64,000 nucleotides of DNA from Atriophallophorus winterbourni. Its lineage: Eukaryota > Platyhelminthes > Trematoda > Plagiorchiida > Microphallidae. Under the pieces are notes generated by a model. The model was not told where the DNA came from. It was given only the letters and a program-made list of their open reading frames with translations, and did not search any database. The stretch lies in contig JACCGJ010020363.1 of assembly GCA_013407085.1 (NCBI GenBank), positions 1 to 64,000 of the forward strand, written 5' to 3'. A program made the translations under genes and the position numbers. Numbering within the stretch: the first letter of the stretch is position 1; each line of letters opens with the position of its first letter. This document shows, in pieces, positions 8,454 through 61,520 of this stretch.

Positions 8454-8751
8454 CGTATGTATGTATGTATGTATGCGTGTATGTATGTATGTATGTATGT
8501 ATGTATGTATGTATGTATGTATGTATGAAAGCACAAGCCTGATCCAGGCAAAGTGCCGCGCAGTCAGAGACTGCACGTGGGCGATATTACTGTCAGGTTG
8601 CCCAGGCCTATACAGATATGAGAAATAGAGAATACAGATAGTAGTGAGACTCCAGCGTGTTTCAGCATGCAGCTCACTACCCATGGCCAATCAATTTAGC
8701 ACGGTGTTAGCTGCACAGCACAGAAGTACTGTACGATTGCACATCCGTGCA
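8454..8751 (-). repeat. SINE-like repeat with perfect 11-bp target-site duplication
   Basis: Full copy flanked by GATCTGATGCT at 8443-8453 and 8752-8762. Its tail has grown into a TATG microsatellite of about 70 bp on the left. The duplication shows integration by target-primed retroposition or a similar process. Confidence 0.88.
8456..8527. repeat. (ATGT)n microsatellite
   Basis: About 17 tetranucleotide units with one interruption (GCGTGT), forming the tail of the adjacent SINE-like copy. Confidence 0.95.
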
Positions 8752-13100: not shown

Positions 13101-16100
13101 GAGCAGTTCACTGTCATCCTGGTTACCACGTATGACGGTCAACTGCGAAAGGTACGTTTGCTTTACTTTTACGCGCTCGCGTTCAATTTGCTTTTACCAC
13201 TTTTTCGTTGAGCATGTTTCATGTGCTTGTTACAGTACGAGTTAGAAAGCCGAAACCGTTCCAGATATTTGGATTCAATCGATCTTTCTGGTAAGCCATT
13301 GACCGGGATCTCGCTTGACATCACGGGGTCTGTCGCTTTCGTGACTAGCTTAGAAAACGTGAGTATTCTGATAATGTTTATTGAATTGGCAATTCGTTCA
13401 TTCTCCCTCTTTCAACATCCAATCTGTTGCGCGAGCCCAATCGATTTTGATTTTATTTTGTCTTCGGTTAATGTATGACCATGTCACCGTTTGGCTGACT
13501 CAGAACTCATGCATACACACAATCGTACGGAGAAATTTGAAAGCAATCGGTTAGCGCAGGTTTTGGATAACGTTTCACTTTTGACACAAGCTTCGTCATA
13601 TCAAGGGTGATAGTCAGGACAGTCAGGCAGTCAACCCACCACCTCTTTCTCTACCTCACCGCAAACAGCCTATATTAAGCCTAGGGTGTGACGTGTCGTA
13701 GGCATGACCAAGATCAGTGGTAACTTTGCCTAATACAGTGTTCACGTCAATCTGAATCAAGTGAACACAGTCAAGGTCGGTTGACACTGTTGTTCACATG
13801 TGTAAAAGTACCTGCCTAGCGGAGTTAAGGTTAAACAATTTTTAAAAACCTAATTAATTATCAAGTGAAAGGTGAATATTGGCTGCCTACGTTGGCATCA
13901 GTGCTGAGCGCCAGATTGTGGAAATCTCCGCCCCATCCACCATATTGGCCGCACTCAAACCTACCTTTGCAATTTTGAGCGCTAATCGACAACTCATCCT
14001 TGTCATGCCTACGTGACTTGACACCCCCTAGACTTCATATAGGCTGTTTCGCGGTGAGGTAGAAACGGAGGTGGTGGGTTGACTGTTACTTAGTCATGTT
14101 CCCTTGTCCTTACTATCACCCTGGATTTGACGAAGCTTCTGTGTCAGAAGTGAAACGTTACCAAAACCTGATCTAACCGATCGCTCTCAAATTTCCTTGC
14201 ATTGAATACACAATCGGTCTCAAACATAATCAATCACAGCCGTGGTAACTGGTTCCAGGAACAGATCAGAGCTGTATTATAAATGAACATTATCGAGCTC
14301 ACAATGCGGCAGTACTAGGTAGAGTACAATTGTACTCATGCGAAGCCAAACTTTTAGTGACTACTTTCTGGAACTTCTTAGTGTTCACTTGAATTGTTTT
14401 GTAACCCGCAGAAATACTTTTAAAAAATCAGATGCCACATTCGTGCTTAGAATAGAGCTTCAATGATCTTGTATCCACTTCGAACCACTACCGGTTTCTA
14501 GCTGTTGGACGTCATCAGGGGAAGAGAGTAAGATAAGGTTCACTGAACCTTGAAACAGCGGTATAGTGGTAAACAAAGGTATACTTGTATGCCACTGTTA
14601 TATAGGGTTCTTTCAAAGAACCACGATGTTCAAATGCAGAATCACAAAGTGATTCCCGGCCAAGCGCTCGGGGCGCTTATAAAAGACCAATGTATTGTGA
14701 TGCTCACAACCCCATCTCTTACACACCACTATCGGTTTCTGGCGCATGCGGATCCTGATCCTACTGTCCCTACTTGATGAGTGCAAACAGCACGAAACCG
14801 GTCGTGGGCGTGTGTGTGTGTGATGGAAATGCATGCAAATGAGCTTTTTAGCTTCATCATTGTAACTAGCCTTCTTTGTTGGGGTGCTCTAATGTAGCTG
14901 CCGGTGCCATTATTGAATTATATGAATATATTCTAGTATTATCAAGTTGTTGAAATCAGTAAACGAATCGTAGTATATACATATATACATCTTTCCAACT
15001 TTTCTCGGCTCACCTAACTTAACCTCGCGGTCATCTTGTAAATGTTTCATCTTTTCTATCACAGGTTTTCCGTGTAGAGCTTTCAAATTGCAGCGCTCAC
15101 ACAACGTGTTCTTCCTGTCTGGAAGCGCGCGATCCCTATTGCGGGTGGTGTTTGGTTGAGGGCCGCTGTATGTTGTTGCACGAGTGTCGCTTATCCGGAG
15201 CCAAGCGGGCCGGTCACACCGCGGAAAAGCCCATTCGTTGTGAATTGTCAAAGAATCCGTCCACACAGTATCCACCCGGACCGAAATTCACATGGCTGGC
15301 GTACACGGCGTCCAAAACAAAGTGAGCTCACTTACGTTTCTTCAAGACTGATGTATATGATGATCCTTAAACGGACGCTTTCATTGCCTCGTTGTCGAAG
15401 CCGTCCTTTTCGTATCAGTTGACAGTTAATGTTGTCTTGACATTCCTTTTATTGTGAACACACGCTTATTTTACCGTATTATACATCGAACCTATTTCCG
15501 TTTGTTATAGTCCATACTCGAGTTCTCTAGTTGATTAAATCAGGCGTTATCTTCTCAACGTTCGTTTGTGTTCTGATCATCTCTGACTCTCGTTACAAGT
15601 GTTGAGCGAGCAATGCGTGCGAAAAACGGTGGTATAAAAACTAATAGGACAGGCCGGATGATTAGAGTGTTTGGCATGTTACGTATTTTCCGTTTGCTTT
15701 TTTGTCCTAACATTTTAAGCAATTAACCGTGGGTTACGAAGTATGTAATCGTCGCAAACTTTAGTTTGGTAAGGTAGCCGTTGATTAGACCCTGCATAAA
15801 TGAATCATCTTCAAAACATATTGCATTTTCTGAGCCACTGTGATATAGGGTTCTTACAAAGAACCACAATGTTCAAATACAGAATCACAAAGTGATTCCT
15901 GGCATAGCGCTGGAGGCGCATGTAAAAGACCAATGTATTATGGTGCTCACATCCCCATCCCTTACACACCACTACCGGTTTCTGGTTTCTAATAAACAAT
16001 TTAGGGATGAACACAGCATTTAGGGGGTATGATCAATTGTCTTGATCTCCCCTGTCTAGCTTAGAGAACTTAGGGTTGGTCAAGAAAATGCCATTTAAAC

Positions 16101-31100: not shown

Positions 31101-34100
31101 TGCTTATAAGATAGCAGTAATTTTTTTCTTAAATTGGTTGAAACAATACGCATCTAGAACCTGATTATTCTAGACACTTACGCTTTCCCAGCGATTTTTG
31201 TTCATGAAGGTTCCTCCGTGTTAATGATGCGTGTTAGTGAAAGCTGTAAGGAAGCCGTAAGGCTGAGGTGACTCTACTCATTTACAACGCCTGATGGATT
31301 GCATTTTCCATTCGAGGTGTGGCACCTCATCCTCGTGTGTCTATGCCTAACCTTCTACAGGTTCAATAGATTTTAGGTCCCACCCTTACCCATTTTTTCA
31401 GGATTTTAACGCGTCATGGTTGTGTATCAGTTAAGCACTCAGTACGTTTTACCCATGCAATGCTGTCCATCATGCTGATAATTGACCTGTTTCCAATCCA
31501 GTGACTGACCAATGTCCACAAAGTACATCCTGCTTTTCAAGAGTTTCAGCGCACACTTCAATTCGTGTTTGCATGCATTTCCATCACACACACTCCACGA
31601 CCGGTTTCGTGCTTTTCGCACTCATCAGATAAGGACAGGACGATCATGATTCGCATGAATTGAAACCGTGGGTGCATGGCTTTGAAAATACTGTTAGATA
31701 GGGCTGGCAGAACTAGCCTGTTCAATCGCATGTGCGCACACACACTAAACCTGATCTGCCTATGTCCACATGACGAGGGCATACACTGTATGTACAGTGA
31801 GCAACAATAAAATTGAAAATATATTATTTTTGAACCAATTGTACATATTCTATTTCATCAAAAGCACTTGCTTGTGTCTGGAATTTATACAATCTGAGCC
31901 AGCAAAGGTTGTTCGGCATAAATCTTTCAACCGAACCAATCTTAAATTGCTAGTGTACCTCATTCGGTTAGCTGTCTTATTTGTGCGACAGATGAGGAAA
32001 ATTTTATGATTATTTACACGAAACCTTGGAATTGGTGGACTTGGCGTGTTGCTTTGATCTCCGTGTCTTTGGTTATCTTATACCTTGTGAATGCACGGAT
32101 GTACAATCGCGCAACATTGCGGTACTGCGCAGGTAACACCGTGCTAAATTAATTTGCCACTTACCTGCATGCGGAAACACGTTGGAGTCTCACTGCCATT
32201 TCCTTTTTCTCATATCTGCCGATGCCTGGGCAACCTGACGGCATGTTAGCCCACGTACACACTAAGATTGTGCGGCACTTTGCCTGTGTCATACATAAAT
32301 ATCCTGTAAATTTACTTAGTCGGAAGCTAGTTGCAATCCAAGACGACACGTTACGTCACTTTGTTTCAAAAATCGGTTTTCAAACCGCTTTTCGCCAGGC
32401 CAGCCTAACATTTTGCGACAGATACTTCAAACGTAAACCGTCCACTCCGCGGTGAAATGATGGATGCTAAGTCATTCGAGCTAAGTGTGCAGTGGTTCTT
32501 TCAAGAACGCCCAAACCTGGAATAAGAAAGAACGTTCGCCTACGTCCGTTCTGTTTTGCCAAACAAAAAACCTATCTCACAACAAATGATATTTACCTTG
32601 ACAGTGACAGTAATAAACCAATTCGTTGTTCCATGTGTTGAATTTACCCAGCATATGAGTTGTATTTTTCAATGACTTTATAGCCACCGAACCCTAAAAT
32701 AAGATTTGGTAAATTGCCATCACTTCGACGTATTCGTTTATTTACTGTGCGAATGGGGTAATGTTTTTTTCCACATAACTCAAGTTGCCCTCACAGAATG
32801 CTCCGTCACTTTCACTCCCCAAACAGGCTTTTTCCCCTCCATTCGAATTCATGATCCCACAACTCACAAAGGTTGCACCAGAAAGAGGGCCCGTCTCAGG
32901 TGGTACGCTGTTACGATTGTTCGGTTCCAACTTGAATATCGGCACCGCACGATCCGTCATTCTCTCGTGGTCTCCCGAGAACACAGTCGATGTGATCCGG
33001 CCAAATGCCCCCGACTCTTCGATTGCTTGTGATATCGAAAGGTCAGTGTTTCACGTATCTTTCATTTTCGTGATGGGATCCAGTTGATATTGATTTAAAC
33101 AGCTTTTGACTTTGAATCCACTTGTTTGATGTCCGTAAGTTGTACCTTTGTTATACTTTCGAGGACGAAACCGGTCATTCACGGGTGTGCCACTATTTGA
33201 CCCGGAATCACTTCATGATTCGATTTTTGAAACCCTTGTTTGTAACACTGGTTTCAAAGTCCATCTTTGTTTACCCCGGGTTCAATACTCACTGAATGTG
33301 ACCTTGTTTTTCCACTCGATGAGGACAAACAACCGGAAGTTGTATGTACATTTTTCAACGCACAAAGGATGGAAAATGTATCTATTTATGCTAGTCTAAT
33401 GGTTGTGGGTACCGCGGCATTTCCAGCCCTCAATTTTGTCTTGTATGTTTGATAGGATATTTGGTCTACTTACTCAAGTCATACCCTGCAGCCGATGGCG
33501 CACTATCGTCGATTGTCTCAGCGGTCCGTGCAATCTGCGGCGTTTTACATGATTCCAAGAAAATGGACACTTGATATCCTACTTTGCGAATCACCATTTC
33601 GAGATTGATCTGGTTATACTGATGGTCTGTGTTACCTTTTCCTTTCAATTCTATTTCATAGGTAAATTTTGTTTTATACATTTAGACCTTGTTCGTCTAT
33701 AAACCTACGGATTAATCTTGAAATCAGTAAAAATGACTCGAGCTTCTCGAAATCTCCTTCTTATACGCATAGGGGTGACCTTTTGTACGTGCTAATTTTC
33801 GCATCCCTTCTATTAACAACGCAACATGATCTATATCGTTTTGCATGTGGTGAGCGCGTTTTGCTTATTCTATTCAACTTTGATGTGTCGTTATATAAAT
33901 TCGCTGGGCAAAGTGCCATACAGTCAAAGACTGTGCGTGGGCAAAGATTCTCTCAGGTTGCTCAGGTCTAGACGGATTAGAAAAATGGCAGTGAGACTCC
34001 AGTATGTTTACGCTTGCAGCGTGCAATACCTTTGGCAAATCATATTATCACGATATTATTTTCTTTTATTCCATCTCTTTGCCGTTTTCCTTTTCACAGT

Positions 34101-37100: not shown

Positions 37101-40100
37101 CGAGAAAAAATCACGACGAATATTCAATCGAGAATGCGGAATGCTTAAAGCCTTTGAATGTGTTCGTGTTCGAGTAAGGCCATTGGGTTTTAGCAAGTGT
37201 TTAAGGGGATGGTTTACAGAATGCAGGGATTTTGAATGTCAACATGAGGTCACTACGTATCCATCGTTGGGTAAAATCGTGCAGATTCAGCTGTGCTTTT
37301 ATTTGTTAACGTGAGCGCGTGGTTATTCTACGTCCAATGTTGCTTGAAGGTAAATTCTATCGAGTAACCTTACTCCTCGGCCGAAATCTCATTCTTATCA
37401 AAGACGGAATTCGTTCGATCATACCCGCATCGTAGTCAGTTCGTAGAACAATTAATGCAGCTTGAAGCTGTTTCGCATTTTCATCGCACGAATAAGGCGG
37501 GAAAATGAGTTCTCTCATTCGTGGTAATCTCGATGCGGTTGTTGTACTCCCCGCTTTGTCCACACCGAACCGTCGTTCGTGGGCGTGGAACGTTTCGTTG
37601 CGATTTGTGCAGGTTCGTTGGTAGTCACGTTTGACCCGCATGTGGACTTTAGATCAATATTCCAAAAGCTTCAACCTACTCCAGTTGAATCATGTCGATG
37701 CACGCGGTATGTGCTGGGAGTGCCTGCAATTAGGGATTTTTAGTTAAATAAATCATGTTGAGGTTGAACAACAAATCGCTGTCCATTGCAAACGACTGAT
37801 CCGATGCAGTTGAATTTGCAGACGACTTTTTACCCACTGATTGAGTCCATTCGAACATCATCTACTTTCAACTGATTTTTTTCGAAATTATTCCCGCTTC
37901 TGATTCAACATTTTGTAATTTCACATGTTAGCCTTGCTTGTACCTGGTGGCGACTTTGGAGTGTTTTAGCCCCACCCTGGTCCCTAACGTGCTTGCCGCT
38001 TCACCGCAATCCGATGATGGTGATCACTTCGACTCCGGCCGCATCGAATCGTTCCCCACAAACGAACCGACAGCTGCCCACTTCGCGTCTACACCACACG
38101 CTCGACATATTCTTTCCAGTTCCCTGTCTTTAACATCGACCGAGTTCCCTTTCAAAGTTGCCTATGGCTTCATGATGGACGGTGTCACTGACTCGAGGGT
38201 GTATGGACTAATCAATGTAAGTGATTCGTCGGTTTTTCTCTTGTCGTTTTACATTCTTTGGCCTCGCGCTACGCCGTTTTCTTTATTCCAGGTTCACAGA
38301 GACCCAGAAGTGATTCCTTTCCCAGACGGTGTGCGGGAAGAGGAGTTTGACAATTTCGATCCGTCCAATTTGTCCAAGAGCCTCGATGCGTCCCGTGTGC
38401 CACGTGATCTGCATGTCATCACGACGCGATCCGCAACCAAAGCGAGTCAATTGTTGCGGCTGAAAGGTCAATTCGATGCATTGGTCGCGGACCCGTACTT
38501 GGCTGGTGCGGATCAATTTCAAGTTCTTCTCGGGGAGATGCATCATTGTGTGTTGATTGATGTTCACCCGAATGAGATACGCTGTGATTTGGACCAGTCG
38601 GTGCTTGTAACTGAAAAGCTGTATCCTGTTACCGTGCAGGTACGGGGTTATTTCTGTGCTTTACTTATAATTATGTAGTGAACTCGGTTTTCGCAAAGGA
38701 CAACATATGACTCATTGGTGACCAATGTAATGTGTTTCTGACCGTAGAGGCAGTAAGATTCGCCTCAGTGAGGCTTGTAACGGTGGAAAAGCAGTAAACA
38801 ATGTTTTTGACTTTGAAGCCACTGTTTAACACAGTTCATACAACGAACCACAATGTTCAAACACAGAAGCACTCATTCCTTGTCAAGCGCTCTAGGCGCC
38901 TATGGGTGACCAAAGTAATGTGTTGCTAACATGCTTCGCTCTTACAGACCACAACCGGTTTCTGGCTATTTGCCGTGAAGACAGTAAGATTAGTTTCAGT
39001 GAGTCTTGTAACAGTGGGACAGTGGTAAACAAACGTCGGCTGTGAAGCCACTTTGGTGGCCTTGTCTCCAGTTCTTCGGCTATTTCATCACTGTTCCAAT
39101 GTTCAATGAATTAGATCACTTATGGTACCCTCAACGGTAGGAATTAAGTTTCAGAGAAATTAAGCTGATAACTGAGAAACTACAGTTATTTTAGTGGATT
39201 CGCTTACAAGTTTATCTAGCAATTGTTTATAACGGCATAGTAGATGTTATCGATTGGAATATGTTTGGGACCGATCGTGTATTCATAATACAAAGAAATT
39301 TGAGTGCAATCGAATATTGCGAGTTTTGGGTAACGATAACCTGTCGATACAGATGCTGTACTACGATAAACTTCCGTTCATCCAAGACAGGTCTTTAGAT
39401 CCTTAGCTTGGTCAATGTTTTATAAGGTAGAACACCTGTAGAGCGACGAAAGAGATCGAAAACAGGCGCACCGTGAAGCAAGCCAAAGGTTCATAGTCCA
39501 CAGCTATCAAAAAAAAATATAAACCGCCAATTAATGAAGGTAAAATACCACTCAGAAAAATTGGCGAGATGCAGTTTGTATAGCGTATGTAAAATGTACA
39601 TCTGAAGCGATACGTAGAATTTTGAATCAGGCGGCCATACGCGTAACTAATAAGAAATAGAAAACCATCATTTCGGTTATGATGTGCCTCAAGGATAAGA
39701 CACTTTTATCTAGCGTCACGAACAGCATCTACAGAATCAACTGTAAGGACTGTACGGGTGTTTACATAGCGCAGACTTCCAGGGAAATTCATATTAGAAT
39801 CGAAGAACACCGAAAGCGTGCCCAGAGACAGCCCCGGGGTGCGAGCGAATATCAATCCCTTATTCGTGATTCCGCCTTGGCAGGGCACGTTTTAGATACC
39901 AGCCATAGTGTCGCTCTAGACAATGTGGAAAAATTGAGACTCGGTATTAAACCGTATATCGAACGCCTACATGCGTAGGCGGTCGAAATTGCCAATGCAG
40001 GTCGACTGGCGGTCCATAAGGTAGATGGGGCAGAAATATCTTAAATCTGGCGCTCGGCACTGCTGCGAATGCAAATAGTTGTTGTTCACCTTATACCTAC

Positions 40101-57790: not shown

Positions 57791-58567
57791 TCATAAGTTA
57801 GCACACGCGGACTCTGTTGTTGCGGTATTCACGCGTAGTCCTGCATATGAAGCAAAGTGTGCTAGTCTATCGGTCTTTCTCTGAAGAAGTTGGGGGTCAC
57901 GTGATATCAAGCAGACATCATCAGCGTATTCCAGATCCTCCAAATGCTCGGATTCCTTCCAATCGATACCATTCCTCTCAACTTTTACTGTCTGTTTCAT
58001 TATCCAGTCTATTACCAACAGAAAAATCATTGGGGAAAACAGGCATCCATGGCGAACGCCAGTCTCAACTCCAAATGGATCGGTCAGTCTTCCGTTGTGA
58101 ATTACCTGACAGGAGGCACCGTCATACAGCTGCTTTATGAGGTCCATGTACAGCGGTGGGACCCCATAGTGTGGCAAAAGCTTCCATATGAATTCGCGGT
58201 CCACACTGTCGAAGGCTTTCTCAAAATCTATGAAGTTGAGGCAAAGAGGCGATTGCCATTCAATGCTTTGTTCAATTATTATGCGGAGGGTCGCAATTTG
58301 GTCGATGCCAGACTTTTGTTTTCTGAAGCCTGATTGCTCTGGCCGTAACACTTGGTCGATAGCGTCGCGCAAACCCATAAGGATGATGCGTGTAAGTACT
58401 TTACTAGGGACTGAGAGCAGAATGATACCTCGCCAGTTTTTGCATAGCCTCAGATCCCCTTTCTTAGGAAGTTTGACCAAATGACCTCTTTTCCAATCAT
58501 TTGGGACCCGTCTTTCTGACCAGATTTTCTGCAGCAGAGGAAGTAACATATCAGCCGAGGTGTCCAA
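57791..58567 (-). pseudogene. RTE-like reverse transcriptase domain
   Basis: 258 codons. Catalytic blocks FEKAFDSVDR and YADD keep the metal-binding aspartates. GVRHGCLFSPMIFLLV replaces the usual GVRQGC. The upstream block KNGKAPGPDGIPPEAL lies in another frame because of a ~1-base shift near 58640. Confidence 0.88.
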
Positions 58568-58632
58568 ATCAGCCTTCAGAGCTTCTGGTGGAATCCCATC
58601 TGGACCTGGTGCTTTGCCATTCTTTAGCGATT

Positions 58633-59340
58633 TTAAGGCAAAAAGGATTTCATTTCGACCGGGGGGTCGGTGTTTACGTCTAGCAAATTTGTTGCTGGTG
58701 GGATGTCAGTGACTGAAGTAGGTGCTGGTCGATTTAGGAGTTCCTTGAAGTGCTCCATCCATCGCTTTCTTTGCACCGATTCCTGACTGATAAGGTTACC
58801 TTCACCGTCCTTTATTATTTTGCCGTAAGGTATTTTCCTTCCTGATAAGGTTCTGGTAATGTTGTAGCCGGTGTTCAGGTCTCTCTTTTCTGCTGCATTT
58901 TCCGCCTCCGTTGCCAGCATTTCATAGAACCGCCTCTTGTCACTTCTGGCACTTCGTTTCACGTCTTTATTTAGGGAGCCGTATTGTTTGATCAGTTGGT
59001 TTTTCTGCTTGGTGTCCTTACACCGGAGGATCTGTTGTTTCAGCTGCCTTCTCGAGTTGATCAGTGTCCAAGTCTCACTCGAGATCCACTCTTTGTCTTT
59101 CTTTACCCGTCTGCCAATTACGTGCTTACAAGTGTCTTGCCAACAGTCTTTCAGAGCGGTCCAGTGTTCATTTATTGGGAGTTCAGGGGTTAAGTTGTTG
59201 AGCGATTCGAATCTGTTTTTCAGTGAGATTGAGAAAATCTCTCTTGTACGCTCTTCCCTTAGTTTCTGCGTGTGATACTTTATACTAGGCCGACTGCCGG
59301 TTTCGTAGAAAGCTCTCAACTTGATTTTAATTTTGGCCAT
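58633..59340 (-). pseudogene. RTE-like ORF2 linker between endonuclease and RT
   Basis: 235 codons starting MAKIKIKLRAFYETGSR, with the basic, helical HWTALKDCWQDTCKHVIGRR and RKRWMEHFKELLNR stretches typical of RTE linkers. Ends at the frameshift before the RT. Confidence 0.85.
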
Positions 59341-59600
59341 TAGAAGGTAGTGATCTGAAGCAACATTCGCACCTCACATTACGCGTGTATCAAGGAGACT
59401 ATGTCTCCACTTTCGTGAAATCGATAGGTGATCGATTTGATTGGCAGTAACGCCATCAGGCGATGTCCAGGTGGCCTTGTGGATGTTTCGGTGTTGAAAG
59501 ATGCTGCCTCCGATGACCAGATCGTTGAGCGAAAATCTGCGAAAACTTCACCGTTCTCATTCATTTCACCTAGGACATGCGTACCCATCACAGATTCTCA

Positions 59601-61149: not shown

Positions 61150-61520
61150 TGAATCAAATAAACTACACAGTGATGTGTTGCTCACATCCCCCGAACTTAC
61201 ATTCCGCTACCGGTTTCTGGCTGTTTGCCATCATCAAATGGAGACAGTAAGATTAGGTTCAGTGAGTCTTGAAACAGTGGATAAGTGGTAAACAAGGTTA
61301 TACTTGAATGCCTCTGTTGCATAGGGTTCGTACAACGAACCACGATGTTCAAACAGAATCACAAAGCGATTCGTGGTCAAGCACTCAAGGCGCTTATGGT
61401 TGACTAAAGTGATGTGTTGAACACATCCCCCGAACGTGCACTCCACTACCGGTTTCTGGCCGTTTGCCATCAGCAGGTGGAGACAGATTAGGTTCATTGA
61501 GCCTTGAAACACAGGTTGTG
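61150..61520 (-). repeat. Hammerhead-bearing tandem repeat, ~1.5 units of 239 bp
   Basis: CCGCTACCGG at 61204 recurs as CCACTACCGG at 61443. On the minus strand the 61443 copy has stem I CTCCAC/GTGGAG (6 bp), core CTGCTGA (A6 changed to C), stem II TGGC/GCCA, GAAAC, CGGTA. The 61204 copy has TTGATGA (C3 changed to T), stem II TGGC/GCCA with loop AAACA, GAAAC, CGGTA. Together they reconstruct a full hammerhead layout. Confidence 0.8.

Follow-up and report, generated by a model that had tools for sequence, protein, structure and literature searches.

A decayed hammerhead motif in a presumed plexin intron of the fluke Atriophallophorus winterbourni and the probable retroelement family to which it belongs

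Introduction

The closest described systems are the metazoan non-LTR retrozymes of Acropora, Mytilus and axolotl, which form tandem units of 150–450 bp, carry a type I hammerhead and have a GC content below 50% (PMC7229834). When target duplications are present they are longer than 4 bp, dimer cleavage is described for those with a weak helix III, and the hammerhead motifs reported number about 5,000 in the mussel and 126,247 in axolotl (PMC7229834). The known trematode elements that come closest are SMalpha and the hammerhead-bearing W-elements of Schistosoma (PMC8490949). Hammerheads of the SMalpha type have also been found in Schistosoma introns (PMC2576457). A role in pre-mRNA processing has been proposed for intronic hammerheads in amniotes and in the mucin genes of Schistosoma.

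The sequence analysed here, called the window, is a 64,000-nt stretch of the trematode Atriophallophorus winterbourni (contig C12497:1-64000), set within a searched genome of 537 Mb in 15,840 contigs. It contains a hammerhead motif which, judging from its sequence and that of its relatives, is very probably a solo copy, now decayed, of a hammerhead retroelement that is non-autonomous and of the metazoan retrozyme or SMalpha-like kind. The family of this motif, characterized by stem II GUGC/GCAC and C17, is designated family ii; no paper on it appeared among the literature matches listed.

The hammerhead motif and its setting

The motif is composed of the following parts.

14768–14809, plus strand: type I hammerhead motif, RF00163 27.1 bits, T at C3 (14774), predicted cleavage after 14803
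14769–14773 (CCTAC) with 14804–14808 (GTGGG), plus strand: stem I, with one U-G pair
14774–14780, plus strand: core TTGATGA
14781–14784 (GTGC) with 14790–14793 (GCAC), plus strand: stem II, enclosing AAACA
14794–14796, plus strand: GAA; the cleavage base C is 14803
14797–14802, plus strand: stem III ACCGGT, a loopless palindrome suited to pairing between two copies

On inspection of the sequence, every hammerhead piece named in the earlier note lies where that note had put it within 14769–14808 of the plus strand, and T at 14774 (position 3) is indeed the sole departure from the core. The covariance-model check went the other way: the motif, aligned over its full length at 14768–14809 (E=0.00033 in a 1-kb search, 0.021 over all 64 kb of the window), falls short of the RF00163 threshold, a gathering score of 34 bits, and this was one of two outcomes that the note had jointly set against its own reading. 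The Rfam scan of the window likewise returned no family at or above its gathering score. The threshold is, however, a poor yardstick for family ii, because canonical copies of the family miss it too: among 13 hammerhead matches at five loci the best score is 32.9 against 34 bits, in 7 canonical copies.

A profile made without the window or any duplicate of it recovers the motif at E=1.3e-27. A tolerant hammerhead descriptor, allowing one core mismatch, finds two places in the window, the 14768 motif and 61441–61482, and misses the copy at 31593; on 60 first-order Markov sequences of 64 kb it finds none. By the Rfam match, the descriptor set against its Markov control and the presence of a second copy in the window, the hammerhead is more than a chance resemblance.

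The motif lies within a longer repeat, which is flanked by parts of a plexin-like gene.

14743–14849, plus strand: solo hammerhead-bearing repeat copy of ~107 nt, ending in the T-run GAGCTTTTT; 5' edge approximate
14744–14749, plus strand: outer stem I, 5' strand GCATGC, complementary to 14831–14836
14831–14836, plus strand: outer stem I, 3' strand GCATGC; the natural L010 tandem is predicted to form the same helix
9051–10151, plus strand: plexin-like ORF, matching a putative Fasciola gigantica plexin at 48%
15065–15198, plus strand: first part of the plexin exon downstream of the motif, with the PSI domain / plexin repeat, end approximate; Pfam PF01437, 52 bits on 15065–15280

The copy aligns to a unit of locus L051 and ends at the T-run of that unit, the alignment starting ~17 nt further 5', inside an adjoining copy of a second family (family iii). 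Because the plexin-like ORF and the PSI exon flank the motif and are both on the plus strand, it is placed in a presumed plexin intron, in sense orientation and ~256 nt upstream of the PSI exon, in agreement with the intronic setting that had been claimed for it. The extent of the ~107-nt repeat, the outer stem I, the loopless nature of stem III and the adjoining minus-strand family of ~240 nt go beyond the earlier note. A stretch of 1,167 bp around the copy (14228–15392) is 99.5% identical to L040 (C5674:56500-57700), the same copy included, and would represent an uncollapsed haplotype or a recent duplication.

Families ii and iii within the window

Further hammerhead-bearing copies in the window belong to family ii itself or to the related family iii, which has stem II GGC/GCC and units of about 239–240 nt and lies on the minus strand here.

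31568–31657, minus strand: second family ii copy; hammerhead 31593–31634, core intact by strict criteria; only 18.8 bits in Rfam, E=7.3
14485–14743, minus strand: family iii, ~1.07 units, head to head with the window copy; 5' hammerhead cut at CCAGAAACC
61166–61511, minus strand: ~1.45 units of family iii; its two hammerhead-like motifs are spaced by 239 nt and have A at the cleavage position
38745–39032, minus strand: family iii, ~1.25 units, degraded
15834–15985, minus strand: family iii fragment, 0.62 unit

The two family ii copies match at 84% over 95 bp (14745–14839 with 31657–31568). With the profile that leaves out the window, E is 4.4e-23 for the second ii copy and lies between 1e-10 and 1.5e-4 for five places of family iii. 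At position 17, the 29 family iii rows have A in 18, T in 9 and G in 2, and the first pair of stem II is usually C opposite A. Even with these two features, family iii motifs recur across many loci; they probably spread in spite of weak or absent ribozyme activity.

Abundance, arrays and young copies

Genome-wide, there are 1,959 exact matches to the canonical 43-nt hammerhead of family ii, and 4,139 when one mismatch is allowed (backwards controls 0). For this one motif under strict counting, the density is 3.6 per Mb for exact and 7.7 per Mb for near-exact copies. On 304 kb of sampled sequence, the profile detects 46 copies of at least 22 bits, both families and degraded copies included, and none on the reversed sequence. 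Its densities in four samples are 94, 333, 153 and 100 per Mb, the last sample being 40 kb of contig starts picked regardless of ribozymes and holding 4 copies only. These values suggest that the two families together have on the order of 10^4 to 10^5 copies, mostly degraded; the whole-genome pattern counts are firmer than this extrapolation from profile densities. The density of family ii is high, about the mussel and axolotl level when commonly quoted genome sizes are used for those animals, and not exceptional on the strict count.

Family ii carries the conserved hammerhead core CUGANGA...GAA with H17, together with pairing in stems I and II, as in its 1,959 exact canonical copies and in the copy at 31593–31634; the window copy at 14768 departs from it at C3. 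Strict criteria for intactness are passed by 4 of 36 sampled copies of both families, and all 4 are of family ii.

Part of the family is organized in tandem. Steps between units are 232–233 nt at L083, 233 nt at L010, and 231 and 237 nt at L059 and L051, each unit containing one type I hammerhead. L083 has six units, four of them fully canonical, and C129:5679-11339 has 15 exact motifs, mostly at 233-nt steps or multiples, over a span of ~24 units by position; the spacing in both arrays would permit dimer cleavage. Hammerhead satellite arrays also exist in Dolichopoda (pDo500), with a unit of ~500 nt compared with 231–237 nt here. The newt satellite, with a unit of ~330 bp, likewise forms hammerhead arrays and is described as cleaving better as a dimer, and the family ii unit falls inside the 150–450 bp of tandem metazoan retrozymes, as its GC content of 45–46% in four samples falls below 50% (PMC7229834). 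The earlier note had placed the motif, as a divergent copy, in a family of self-cleaving repeats; as far as sequence can tell, this is borne out by a family of thousands of near-canonical copies, some in arrays, for which self-cleavage is predicted.

Other copies are dispersed, and 73 of 100 listed exact places have no other listed exact place inside 1 kb. Some are very similar to each other: with the ~110-nt query L010:1851-1960, 40 places on 36 contigs, the best 40 of 977 candidates scored and the query included, are 99–100% identical, and 11 of them, again with the query, are perfect over the full length. With the 126-nt stretch between two L010 hammerhead repeats as query, 40 of 70 candidates were scored, of which 5 (query included) are identical and 9 are at 97%. 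This suggests that most dispersed copies of the L010 subfamily are devoid of the 126-nt inter-hammerhead stretch.

The change at C3

The exact T3 variant of the window has 44 copies in the genome and an arbitrary C-to-T variant in the loop has 52 (backwards controls 0). Because these counts are close to each other, the C3-to-T change looks like ordinary transition and decay; both exceed the mean of ~17 over 129 single-letter variants of the canonical motif, and no purifying selection at C3 is visible in the genome-wide variant counts. A propagated C3-to-T subfamily was considered and rejected, given 44 exact T3 copies genome-wide against 1,959 exact C3 copies and 52 of the loop variant. In the set gathered with the window copy as query, T3 is present in 17 of 45 close copies, compared with 0–7 at other C columns, an excess attributed to the choice of the window copy as query (duplicate loci L040, L044-L046, L049, L056, L068 and L078 were left out of this count). 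A rule that solo copies carry T3 and tandem copies C3 was also dropped, as the T3 copies L074, L060 and L077 run into a next unit; one array on C2638 holds five T3 copies.

The window copy is probably an inactive ribozyme, and cleavage is probably absent because the copy is solo and its core is mutated. It is unlikely to cleave or to influence plexin splicing.

Predicted structure and covariation

Within one copy, the ACC/GGU stem III forms at most one A-U pair capped by CCGG, whereas two adjacent copies can pair through six bases of ACCGGT. Because stem III is a loopless palindrome, cleavage should require two copies in one RNA. Helix III of axolotl Amex1, with one base pair and a palindromic tetraloop, has the same architecture as A[CCGG]U of family ii (PMC7229834). 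For the natural L010 tandem, the nested double hammerhead has a predicted energy of -99.2 kcal/mol against -100.2 kcal/mol for the unconstrained fold, a cost of 1.0 kcal/mol. Circular folds predicted for four units are 58–64% paired, and their stability does not surpass that of shuffles (z -0.06 to -1.02). No unusual stability is seen in the predicted folds of these four units, whereas known retrozymes are described as strongly self-paired (PMC7229834).

An alignment of 57 motifs has 78.9% of the cells of stems I and II paired, compared with 71.9 +/- 0.9 in shuffles and at most 53.2 in slid frames, and 35 cells have a two-sided change, compared with 18.9 +/- 3.8. In the same 57 motifs, pairs with a two-sided change (5 against 5.1) and pair types (17 against 16.0) are not above shuffles. 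Most of the two-sided cells trace to one difference between families ii and iii; the stem II pair 10.2-11.2 is compensatory between them (UA 30, GC 18, AU 2). These values come from 57 of 66 sequences, and the omissions favour the structure: the near-duplicates L044 and L056, the 44-nt L008:2018, and the very diverged rows L013:6888, L014:9910, L017, L018:5749, L025:8056 and L021:8441.

Insertion anatomy

The family ii repeat has a tail, GCAAATGAGCTTTTT. The T-run motif AATGA(G/A)..TTT is found in 40 of 61 family ii copies, a set from which the duplicates L040, L044-L047, L049, L068 and L078 were left out, and 29 of the 40 stop there and do not enter a next unit; in the window copy the T-run end lies 46 nt past the cleavage position. 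Insertions of 0.39, 0.46, 1.47 (L010) and 2.45 (L059) units end at one common T-run, and the multi-unit ones have edge repeats of 9 nt (L010) and 7 nt (L059). The 5' ends recur at AAGCGCATGC in L048, L050, L054, L055, L059 and L010 and differ in L041, L043 and L057.

Edge direct repeats of at least 7 nt (7–11 nt) are present in 6 of 14 solo copies, compared with 6 of 182 mismatched pairs, and these dispersed copies resemble metazoan retrozymes in having edge repeats longer than 4 bp (PMC7229834). The remaining 8 of the 14, the window copy with 4 nt among them, have repeats of 3–5 nt. These 14 are left from the 61-copy set after removal of 21 copies without the T-run and of 26 of the 40 that run on at one side or both. 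An earlier, overlapping set had repeats of at least 7 nt in 9 of 20 copies, compared with 19 of 380 mismatched pairs, two of the nine (L015 and W31) looking internal to the element by eye. It consisted of 20 of 29 alignments, with the duplicates L040, L044-L046 and L049, the locus L047 (same insertion as L056) and the multi-copy or inverted loci L051-L053 dropped.

The insertion ends point to target-primed reverse transcription from an RNA with the whole cleavage junction. Because insertions of more than one unit reach the common T-run end and have edge repeats, the copied RNA would have had an intact or re-ligated junction. The combination of a fixed T-run 3' end and a recurrent 5' end, seen in family ii, is without counterpart in the portion of PMC7229834 consulted.

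Other elements in the window and the genome

A third hammerhead family, SMalpha-like and distinct from family ii, is present in the same genome (for example, L001-L008 and C12497:90300-90344). In the Rfam search it gives at least 32 matches at E<=1e-3, at least 27 of them over the cutoff, among the best 74 of 96,317 candidates scored. Its stem III is the palindromic ACTCGAGT in all 8 loci inspected, and L003, L004 and L008 carry GGTTCGAATC(C/T), which resembles a tRNA B box, ahead of the hammerhead. In a difference from SMalpha, no tRNA-type box is seen by eye beside the hammerhead of family ii, whose unit shows partial resemblances at most.

On the minus strand of L080, L081 and L082, a GIY-YIG domain (Pfam PF01541, 26.6 bits on L080) precedes stretches that look by eye protease-like and Gypsy-like reverse transcriptase-like. 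In L080 and L081 it shares one open frame with the protease-like stretch, and the three loci are possibly a chimeric LTR retroelement.

Within the window, a dispersed repeat of ~90–210 nt is scattered between 5497 and 50685, one strand having at least 9 copies and the opposite strand at least 8 (part of one copy is TGTCTAGGCCTGGGCAACCTGACAGGATCTTAGTCCACGTGC). A reverse transcriptase remnant at 57794–58705 on the minus strand matches Pfam RVT_1 and is 68% to Trichobilharzia szidati, its nearest named relatives being Trichobilharzia and Heterobilharzia; the frame 58633–59373, also on the minus strand, adjoins it. A GTAT microsatellite of 18 copies lies at 8455–8527, where sub-threshold Rfam miRNA matches are most likely spurious. 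A bacterial promoter and terminator scan of the window, which is not meaningful for a fluke genome, returned nothing.

Origin and spread of the family

By these features of its sequence, family ii is very probably a further member of an already known kind of element. It also resembles SMalpha and Sjalpha of Schistosoma, which are trematode elements, short interspersed and satellite-like, with a type I hammerhead (PMC8490949). In the retroelement reading favoured here, tandem arrays would be transcribed, and neighbouring hammerheads in the RNA would pair through ACCGGT into a double hammerhead that cuts it into units, and these units may then become circular by ligation. The RNA would be copied by target-primed synthesis from the T-run, with a reverse transcriptase from another element, and the resulting copies would have a fixed 3' end, direct repeats and a 5' end that varies. 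Such an insertion would have brought in the window copy, which would later have decayed at C3. Growth of the arrays could also proceed by DNA-level unequal exchange alone. A more tentative proposal, on the doubtful side, is that priming occurs at the internal T-run on circular (or uncleaved multimeric) RNA, in a genome with at least three hammerhead families, of which one has young, identical copies.

Alternatively, the repeat might derive from a Penelope-like element that is autonomous and has minimal hammerheads cleaving as dimers, either as its pseudo-LTR or as a solo remnant of that pseudo-LTR. Family ii shares with the hammerheads of Penelope-like elements and Terminons a minimal type I form without helix III nucleotides, a tandem arrangement and predicted dimer cleavage, as described for those elements (PMC7761336), and the genome has GIY-YIG domains (at least 17 matches, among the best 150 of 1,370 candidates scored). 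Unlike in those elements, no reverse transcriptase or GIY-YIG body was seen beside the repeat in the few places inspected; no repeat copy was found on the 3' side of 4 of the 17 GIY-YIG places (1.3–1.5 kb each, best 5.1 bits), three of which are in Gypsy-like sequence and one beside an integrase-like frame, as labelled by eye. One stretch between two repeats 1,162 bp apart consists of further units and holds no coding body. An origin of this kind is considered unlikely.

Family ii could instead be plain satellite DNA that expanded through unequal exchange, the hammerhead being an ancient passenger with no role in spreading. The homogeneous arrays, the near-equal frequencies of the T3 (44) and loop (52) variants and the five T3 copies in the C2638 array are in keeping with it. 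It is opposed by the isolation within 1 kb of 73 of the 100 listed exact places, by single copies with edge repeats and a common 3' end and by the 1,959 complete canonical motifs, which leave it slightly less probable still than a Penelope-like origin.

The insertion ends also bear on a non-autonomous DNA transposon (MITE), for which the outer stem I halves, AAGCGCATGC and GCATGC...GCTT, would be terminal inverted repeats. Solo copies often start at AAGCGCATGC and end at GAGCTTTTT, with edge repeats of 7–11 nt, as a MITE would have it; however, these repeats differ in length within that range and, by eye, come to 14 nt in L057, the 5' ends are not fixed (alignment phases 72–199) and multi-unit insertions have a common 3' end, so that a MITE is very improbable. 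Recruitment of the intronic copy for plexin pre-mRNA processing, despite its sense orientation just upstream of the PSI exon and a similar proposal for an intronic hammerhead in S. mansoni (PMC2576457), is the least credible of all, as the copy is solo, with a loopless stem III, a changed C3 and related repeats on its flank, and the 99.5% identity of the 1,167-bp stretch to another contig says nothing on conservation.

Significance

A single decayed copy in the window teaches little, and the interest lies in the family, whose near-canonical hammerheads number in the thousands within a single fluke genome. Annotation at the Rfam gathering score misses family ii because even canonical copies do not exceed 32.9 of the 34 bits. 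Young copies with readable ends make the integration mode of hammerhead retroelements testable. If priming at an internal T-run is true, the anatomy of these insertions would provide a genomic test of how hammerhead retroelements spread.
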